Origin: Candidatus Omnitrophota bacterium
GTDB lineage: Bacteria > Omnitrophota > Gorgyraeia > Gygaellales > Profunditerraquicolaceae
Length of the DNA stretch: 42,333 nucleotides
Assembly (NCBI GenBank): GCA_016208765.1
Contig: JACQXK010000060.1
Span: forward strand, 1-42,333
Direction of reading: 5' to 3'
Below the pieces are notes generated by a model. The model was not told the DNA's origin. It was given only the letters and a program-made list of their open reading frames with translations, and ran no database searches. This document shows, piece after piece, positions 3,031-5,164 of the stretch; within the stretch, counting starts at the first letter, position 1, and each line of letters starts with the position of its first letter. Both the position numbers and the translations under genes were made by a program.

Positions 3031-3387
3031 TTACCGCTTGGGGAATTCTGACTCTTCCTTCCACCCTTCGCACTGTTTTAATACCTCAATTACTAACTTA
3101 GTTGAAACTTCAAAACTCTTAAACGAATTAAAAGCTTTGGCTTCTTTTGCGAGGTTTAAGATTATTTTGAGTTCTTCCAGTTTATCTATAGACTTACCGA
3201 GTAATTCTATCCTTAGCCGTCTGGTATTAGCCTTGGCTATGAGGACGAGAATTTCCCGTGCAAGCTTTCTAATGTCTGCTCCGAGGTTATACTTGTTATA
3301 TCTGTCGAAATGCCGGACTATTTCCTCAAAGTAGGTTGCCATGTCCTTAGCTTTTTTATAAACTTTAAGATCTTCGTAAAAACTCAT
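3031..3387 (-). CDS. avd: Avd-like DGR accessory protein (four-helix bundle)
   Basis: This 118-aa, all-helical, Lys-rich protein begins MSFYEDLKVYKKAKDMA, the typical opening of four-helix-bundle proteins of the S23/Avd family. In DGRs, Avd forms a basic pentameric barrel that binds the reverse transcriptase and template RNA. The helices carry many basic residues (RKLAREI, NTRRLRIELLGK), consistent with RNA binding. It lies between target gene 1 and TR, the normal position for avd. Start ATG 3387 has a GAGGT ribosome site. S23-type helical-bundle proteins also occur inside 23S rRNA genes, but the context here decides for Avd. Confidence 0.88.
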   Translation of the reverse strand: MSFYEDLKVYKKAKDMATYFEEIVRHFDRYNKYNLGADIRKLAREILVLIAKANTRRLRIELLGKSIDKLEELKIILNLAKEAKAFNSFKSFEVSTKLVIEVLKQCEGWKEESEFPKR

Positions 3388-3401: not shown

Positions 3402-3429
3402 TTAAAAATTGTCAAAACGTCTAATTCAC
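3402..3429 (-). repeat. 28-bp flank identical downstream of both VRs
   Basis: Bases 3402-3429 are identical to 3965-3992, just beyond the stop codons of the two target genes (core GTCAAAACGTCTAATTCA). TR lacks this flank. The copies show that the two target 3' ends arose by duplication and that the duplicated unit extends past the VR. Confidence 0.9.
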
Positions 3430-3947
3430 TGGCTGGCTCGGACTGGCCGCACATAATACTTGCTGTCCTTATTGCTGTAGTTCACGTTGCCGTTGCCATA
3501 ATACACTACCCGGACGAAGCTCCTACCCCCGGCAACCTCTTCGTTCGTCCAGTAGCCGGCTTCCTTTGTGTCCTTAAAGATGGACATATCAATCTGGGGG
3601 CCGGTGGGGTTATTCTTCACTAAAGAGAACCCTTGTACTGGTGATGGTAAAACCCAACCCTTATGACCGGCAAAGCTGAGTTCTGCGCAGGCTATCTTGA
3701 ACTCTTCCCAGGGCATACGCTCTTTGAAGTGGTTGGGCAGATCTGTGTGTGGAAGTTTAACGATGTAGATATTGTGCCAAGTGTCGAATACTGTGCCGTC
3801 TTTGTTGTCAATGTACCGCGGCTCCGGAAAATCCTTAACCCTGATAATCTTTACATTCTGCGCTGACAGCTTTGCAAAGATGTCCTTTGACGCTCCTTCC
3901 AGGTCAATACGGTCTTTTAAGATGTTTAATACTTGAGTTTGTTTCAT
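3426..3947 (-). CDS. DGR target protein 1 (DUF1566/Lcl-type variable protein)
   Basis: This 173-aa protein starts at ATG 3947 after AAGGAGGAAG. Residues about 45-125 (DNKDGTVFDT, MPWEEFKIAC, AGHKGWVLPSP) match the DUF1566/Lcl C-type-lectin-like scaffold that DGRs often use. The C-terminus from about residue 137 (VAGGRSFVRVVYYGNGNVNY onward) is VR1 and would form the variable ligand-binding face. No signal peptide is visible, so the protein may be cytoplasmic or exported or displayed in some other way, for example on a virion. It ends in RPVRASQ exactly at the TR/VR boundary. VR1 keeps an open frame with no stops. Confidence 0.88.
   Translation of the reverse strand: MKQTQVLNILKDRIDLEGASKDIFAKLSAQNVKIIRVKDFPEPRYIDNKDGTVFDTWHNIYIVKLPHTDLPNHFKERMPWEEFKIACAELSFAGHKGWVLPSPVQGFSLVKNNPTGPQIDMSIFKDTKEAGYWTNEEVAGGRSFVRVVYYGNGNVNYSNKDSKYYVRPVRASQ
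3430..3538 (-). repeat. DGR variable repeat 1 (VR1)
   Basis: Aligned base for base with TR (offset 642, no gaps), VR1 differs at 11 of 109 positions. Ten are at template adenines in the sense direction (seven A to G, three A to T) and one is a T to G near the upstream end. The changes alter codons for Asn/Ile/Asp to Gly, Phe, Val, Tyr, Gly, Ser and Ser. The last 27 sense bases are unchanged, as expected for the homing end. Confidence 0.93.
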
Positions 3948-3992
3948 GCCCCTTCCTCCTTAAATTAAAAATTGTCAAAACGTCTAATTCAC

Positions 3993-4103
3993 TGGCTGGC
4001 TCGGACTGGCCGCACATAACATTCGTCGTCCCTTATTGCCGTAGAACACGCTGCCGCCGTCATAATTCACCTCCCCGAACGCTGCCCCTAACCCCGGCAA
4101 CCT
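3993..4103 (-). repeat. DGR variable repeat 2 (VR2), two bases longer than TR
   Basis: VR2 matches TR over 111 bases with many differences, most at template adenines (for example AAC to AGC, GGC, TTC and GAC codons). Two single-base insertions sit in G-runs, one near 4068-4075 and one near 4031. A few changes are not at adenines, including a C to T and the same T to G seen in VR1. The insertions shift the frame by two. Confidence 0.88.
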
Positions 4104-4541: not shown

Positions 4542-4837
4542 GCGTATGCGAATGTCCTTTGACTTTCCGTAGTAACCGGCGTGTTGCGCGAGATAAAAAT
4601 ACGCACGGCTTCTATATGGCTACAATACTTATTTTTGTGAAACCCCTGACAGTTGCATCTGTAAGTATCATCCGGGAGCTTTTGAATTGTGTAAGTGTGG
4701 ATGTTATAACCTAAAATAGGTTTACATATCCACGCATTATCTCCGTTCTGCTCAATACAACCACGCTCTAAAAACTTATTCGCTTTATCGTTCATCCTTT
4801 GCCGTGACTCCGAAGTTAAAAAAGCCTGCTCTTTCAC
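4538..4837 (-). CDS. SWIM zinc-finger protein
   Basis: This 99-aa protein starts at GTG 4837 behind a strong AAAGGAGGT site. Residues about 58-80 read YRCNCQGFHKNKYCSHIEAV, the CXCX(n)CXH pattern of a SWIM zinc finger. SWIM domains bind DNA or proteins and occur in helicases, MULE transposases and Sws1-type recombination proteins. Here it is almost the whole protein. The role in this phage-like block is unknown. It is translationally coupled to the 47-aa membrane protein downstream. Confidence 0.7.
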   Translation of the reverse strand: MKEQAFLTSESRQRMNDKANKFLERGCIEQNGDNAWICKPILGYNIHTYTIQKLPDDTYRCNCQGFHKNKYCSHIEAVRIFISRNTPVTTESQRTFAYA

Positions 4838-4852
4838 GTCTTACCTCCTTTC

Positions 4853-5164
4853 TTAGGCTTGAGGTTGCGGCGTATACTTCTCCCACTTCCCTTTTAGGAA
4901 AAGAGCGCCTTTAGGTTGTTTATACTCTCCGAATGACTGCTTAGCTTTGCACTTCGGGCAGTAGAGTTCAACGTAGATATATTTGCCGTCCTTAGTCTGC
5001 CTGGCTTGAAGGATTACCTTGTCGTCTCCGCAAGCGCCACAGGTCCCGCTCATTTGCATAAAGGGCGTTGCCTTGAGGAGTGCCTCTTTCAGGTCGCCTT
5101 CTTCATCAAACTTGATACTGATTTGTGTGGTTGGGTTTATTTTCTTGGTTACTGTGATTTCCAT
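4853..5164 (-). CDS. Small zinc-ribbon protein, function unknown
   Basis: This 103-aa protein contains CGACGDD near residue 42 and CPKCKAK near residue 69, two CX2C knuckles that would bind one zinc ion as a ribbon. The N-terminal 35 residues are acidic and may form a beta-helix lead-in. The start ATG 5164 has an AGGAGG site. Position between the nuclease and SWIM genes suggests a role in recombination or single-strand DNA handling in a phage-like module, but this is inferred only from neighbours. Confidence 0.6.
   Translation of the reverse strand: MEITVTKKINPTTQISIKFDEEGDLKEALLKATPFMQMSGTCGACGDDKVILQARQTKDGKYIYVELYCPKCKAKQSFGEYKQPKGALFLKGKWEKYTPQPQA

Follow-up and report, generated by a model that had tools for sequence, protein, structure and literature searches.

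The window analysed here, a stretch of 42,333 nucleotides from contig JACQXK010000060.1 of a Candidatus Omnitrophota genome, carries a cassette in which the target gene of one variable repeat (VR2; gene at 4383-3984), the target gene of another (VR1; gene at 3426-3947), a gene for an Avd accessory protein (3031-3387), a template repeat (TR; 2788-2896) and a reverse transcriptase (RT) gene (1718-2812) follow one another in this 5' to 3' order on the minus strand. The 364-aa RT matched Pfam RVT_1 (4.5e-22) and PHROG 1423 (1.5e-113), and contains the motifs IGNLTSQ and YVDD, conserved in 11 aligned relatives, which conform to the [LIV]GxxxSQ and YxDD pair of RTs of the diversity-generating retroelement (DGR) clade. 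Against the group II intron RT/maturase model TIGR04416 the same protein scored 130 bits, short of the curated cut-off of 300. The 118-aa accessory protein matched PHROG 3206, 'Avd protein of DGR' (3.2e-20), and Pfam bAvd at 1.2e-9 and 39.1 bits, 0.9 below the cut-off of 40, and supplies the Avd-type accessory protein looked for in a DGR; a PDB sequence search returned no relative of either Avd or the VR1 target. Both RT and Avd have open frames, and the VR1 target gene is intact; the exception in the cassette is the VR2 target gene.

VR1 (3430-3538) had been described from the DNA letters as a gap-free, 109-base counterpart of TR with 11 differences, and an ungapped re-alignment of the minus strand reproduced this exactly, the differences comprising seven A>G, three A>T and one T>G. 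Ten of the 11 thus fall at template adenines, for which the chance is P = 2e-4 in a stretch with 38 A among its 109 bases; together with an intact RT, Avd and TR, three variable repeats and a C-type lectin target, this bears out the adenine-specific mutation that had been proposed. The repeat also ends where it had been placed: at the next base to differ TR has A and VR1 has G, but almost all VRs of the clade have this G, which belongs to the CAG-TGA with which the target genes end and is no mutation. Nine codons differ from TR, one of them silently (AAA>AAG) and eight with a change of amino acid (W>G, N>G, N>F, I>V, N>Y, D>G, N>S and N>S), and the frame stays open, as previously noted, up to the stop at 3426. 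The seven amino acid changes counted earlier are those caused by changes at A; the T>G accounts for the eighth, W>G. This single difference at a T is present as described, but is probably not an error at a template T, since VR2 has it too. Its place is the 5' edge of the repeat; because VR1 and VR2 have it while T is kept in VR3 (below) and, in a close relative (viral contig L016), in TR as well as both VRs, it is probably an inherited or exchanged edge difference, which homing would not have overwritten.

The protein whose gene ends in VR1 has 173 aa and matched Pfam Lcl_C at 1.6e-15. A Foldseek search with it gave nothing below E 0.001, the best match (1.5e-3) being Lcl, and the fold was settled by the VIA second look that followed Foldseek. 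Structure alignment of the predicted model (pLDDT 82) returned the Legionella Lcl C-terminal domain with Z 12.6, well above the level at which a likeness may be one of general arrangement only, and, nearer to that level, the known DGR targets TvpA (Z 8.5) and Mtd (Z 7.8). The protein is an Lcl_C protein with a C-type lectin fold, and VR1 occupies the 3' end of its gene, the position of a variable repeat in a DGR target of this fold. The likeness to the Legionella domain and to DUF1566 targets lies in the Lcl_C family and in this structural match; the window protein differs from Legionella Lcl in being a short, stand-alone protein, the full-length Legionella protein having a collagen-like region as well.

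Two further repeats bear differences from the same template. VR2 (3990-4103, minus strand), aligned over 112 TR bases, shows 13 A>G, three A>T, two T>G, one C>T and two insertions, one of the A>G changes being the boundary base. The two insertions, each of a single G, break the frame of the target gene inside VR2; the homologous genes in two related loci (L016 and L018) read through, and RT slippage, decay and assembly error are all possible sources of the extra bases. VR3 lies on another contig of the same genome, C62 (C62:43592-43929, corresponding to positions 4593-4930 of locus L005), and differs from TR by eight A>G, one A>C, one A>T and one T>G. It has lost the 3' end of the repeat; ahead of the repeat its gene is out of frame, in a region that lacks 49 bases found between two direct repeats in the VR2 gene. 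It lies in a prophage-like stretch with terminase, integrase, capsid and tape-measure genes, and a full-length matching RT was found in this genome in the window only, the other RT-like match being a weak one on contig C16 (33% over 63 residues); VR3 is probably an orphan target, without a matching RT nearby. The gene just upstream of it (C62:43044-43595; L005 4045-4596) encodes a 183-aa protein with a long low-complexity Ala/Ser/Tyr repeat, written in runs of GCT, TCT and TAT. In PMC8144416 a DGR is recognised by an RT with a nearby TR/VR pair in which TR adenines account for 75% or more of the mismatches; the counts here are 10/11 for VR1, 16/19 for VR2 and 10/11 for VR3.

Since VR1 forms the end of an intact Lcl_C gene whose neighbours encode Avd and a DGR RT, the element is almost certainly a phage-borne DGR of VR-Avd-TR-RT layout with VR1 as its variable repeat, in which the excess of A>G is the usual DGR spectrum rather than a peculiarity of the enzyme. 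It is a further case of a known type. The Bordetella phage BPP-1 DGR (mtd-avd-TR-brt) has the same one-strand order of target, Avd, TR and RT, adenine-specific TR/VR differences and a C-type lectin target, and the window RT is 32% identical to a BPP-1-type RT; conversely, the window cassette holds two VRs, its TR overlaps the RT start, and its Avd has no BLAST match to Bordetella Avd. By the route known from other DGRs, an RNA of TR would be copied by the RT together with Avd, with nucleotides other than dT inserted opposite template A (chiefly dC, which would be the dominant error, then dA and rarely dG), and the cDNA would replace VR1 at the 3' end of the lectin gene by mutagenic retrohoming. 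By analogy, the variable residues would bind ligands.

The bias towards G in VR1 had been called unusually strong. As a yardstick for when such a share is remarkable, 184 distinct TR-VR pairs were assembled from relatives on viral and genome contigs. Among the 2,796 A changes in these natural VRs, 51.4% were to G, 36.0% to T and 12.7% to C; the G share per VR averaged 0.52 (sd 0.16), 40 of the 184 VRs had no A>C at all, and 28 (15%) had a G share of at least 0.70. The seven of ten in VR1 lie well within this spread (P = 0.20, or 0.23 with the between-locus spread allowed for), and a special bias in VR1 was accordingly rejected. The published record is similar: A>G is the commonest change and about half of replaced adenines become G (PMC6642488), BPP-1 RT in E. 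coli misincorporates C in 59% (PMC12875486), and the DiGReF survey likewise gives A>G as commonest and A>C as rarest, and G shares that differ between loci (PMC3521204). A natural BPP-1-type VR, unlike those of the window, leans to T (4 G, 3 C, 11 T). The frequency of change also varied with the neighbouring template bases: across the 184 pairs an A followed by G was hardly ever changed (18/413, 4%), while the first A of AAC was changed in 71%; the sparing of A before G may be either a context effect of the RT or a matter of structural residues.

Pooling of the three VRs of the window genome tells somewhat more for a strongly G-directed spectrum peculiar to the RT of this lineage, that is, for dC opposite A to an extent unlike other DGRs. 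All three lean to G, with 28 of 36 changes against 51% in relatives (P 0.001 by simple binomial, 0.03 with between-locus spread; 27/35 and P 0.002 without the VR2 boundary base). The G share also varies among loci beyond chance (chi2 206, df 109, P 6e-8), and the clade mean, with the window left out, is 59% against 50.5% in other loci. This lean is weakened because the window genome is simply the highest of 110 loci, because VR1 and VR2 have part of a haplotype in common at the repeat edge and are not fully independent, and because selection, which filters VRs, is uncontrolled; the G share also differs between VRs generally. A mild G lean of the lineage is a weak possibility from the pooled counts, and an RT with a spectrum of its own is unlikely.

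It is similarly improbable that VR1 is a decayed copy in which homing has ended and an old imprint is kept. The frameshift in the VR2 gene of this assembly and the orphan state of VR3 with its missing 3' repeat end would fit such a history, and indeed at least part of the system may be decaying; moreover, of 108 genomes of the family, only that of the window itself showed the DGR repeat pattern. Copies long idle would, however, gather changes at C, G and T, and VR1 has no private non-A change over its 109 bases, in an intact gene served by open RT and Avd frames.

Very little can be said for A-to-I editing, in which adenosine deamination of the TR RNA, with inosine read as G by the RT, would cause the A>G excess. 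The dominance of A>G is what it would predict, but inosine cannot yield the A>T changes (three in VR1, three in VR2, one in VR3) or the one A>C, the ten scanned genes nearest the RT gave no match to a deaminase family, and the same spectrum occurs in unrelated hosts and with BPP-1 RT in E. coli (PMC12875486). An origin by ordinary duplication of a gene end and later divergence, to which the adjoining pair of related target genes and the sequence common downstream of the repeats might point, is refuted because the differences are restricted to A of one strand in VR1, VR2 and VR3 alike, and TR does not lie within any target gene.

In the window, TR runs 25 bases into the RT open reading frame, such that the first eight RT codons are the 3' end of TR, and both the RT start (ATG, 2812-2810) and a ribosome-binding-like AAGGA (2828-2824) lie inside the repeat on the minus strand; no other ATG, GTG or TTG was found upstream in the RT frame. 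An ATG within TR was seen in 11 clade loci including the window, with AAGGA kept in ten of them (AAGAA in L026), a count confined to the window subclade since automatic starts in the wider clade, where the frame is open upstream, are unreliable. TR may double as the translation start of RT, with a possible feedback between translation and copying. In structural group 3 of DiGReF, TR likewise overlaps an end of the RT open reading frame (PMC3521204); the window differs in having the RT start and Shine-Dalgarno-like AAGGA within TR, kept across the clade, a detail of which a search of that paper found no description.

The first 6.7 kb of the contig are phage-like, with genes for a replication initiation protein, an exonuclease-like protein and an endolysin-like hydrolase, and most of this block and the DGR are shared with the 75 kb viral contig IMGVR 3300029286_003689 (L016) at 81-95% protein identity (73% for the VR1 target and 70% for the VR2 target). 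From about 7 kb onwards come genes of chromosomal appearance (DUF134, glycoside hydrolase family 57, pyruvate phosphate dikinase, PolX) and G+C drops from about 0.45 to 0.37; gene content and composition suggest a probable phage/chromosome junction at 6.7-7.4 kb, near which ARAGORN found no tRNA. The cassette with VR1- and VR2-like targets recurs in viral contigs with RT identities of 64-85%. L016, with an RT 85% identical, and the nearest named genome, Omnitrophota MAG JAPLLY010000054.1 (L104), with one 76% identical, each have two VRs with the hexamer TTTGAC after each; L016 differs from the window in that the order of targets is swapped and its VR2-like gene reads through. A search of viral contigs for VR1 alleles, using the repeat skeleton with A positions free, found only two contigs (that of L018, a cassette already known, and L185), and no allele population.

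The hexamer stands at 3411-3416 behind VR1 and at 3974-3979 behind VR2 in the window (both minus strand). In the clade (L016-L028, L045, L048, L055, L104 and the window) it follows 20 of 22 VRs, starting 6-15 bases past the repeat end, but none of 13 TRs, and occurs at five of 128 other gene ends (Fisher P 3e-18). In the wider group TTTG[AG] follows about 69% of VRs against 45 of 801 other gene ends. The P values for the box overstate the case, the sequences sharing ancestry; the bases flanking it, however, have diverged, and one genome has it behind two different targets. TTGACA is unlikely to be the -35 promoter element of the next gene, since that gene starts, in most loci, only some 20-40 bases further on, too close for a -10 element and leader. 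A GC-rich hairpin with a 4-base GRNA loop, as BPP-1 has after its VR, is known 3' of the VR in a subset of DGRs only (PMC3521204). None was found 3' of the 22 clade VRs, loops of 3-8 bases included, whereas the same scan recovered the Bordetella phage control (L189; 8 bp stem, GAAA loop). We tentatively propose, with somewhat more doubt than conviction, that the target site in this clade is marked by a T-rich box in place of the BPP-1 hairpin, namely TTTGAC(AATTT) in the window subclade and a TTTG[AG]-like form more widely, lying no more than about 15 bases past the VR in the subclade and not present behind TR, and that it would constitute a second, hairpin-free retrohoming signal; a role of the box in homing is a guess from its position. 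No description of it was found in the literature searched, to which much subscription literature does not belong.

With the window, the known phage DGRs gain another member, probably from the poorly sampled phylum Omnitrophota. If the TTTGAC box does act in homing, it would explain how DGRs that lack the hairpin recognise their targets, and would be required when such DGRs are used as diversification tools.
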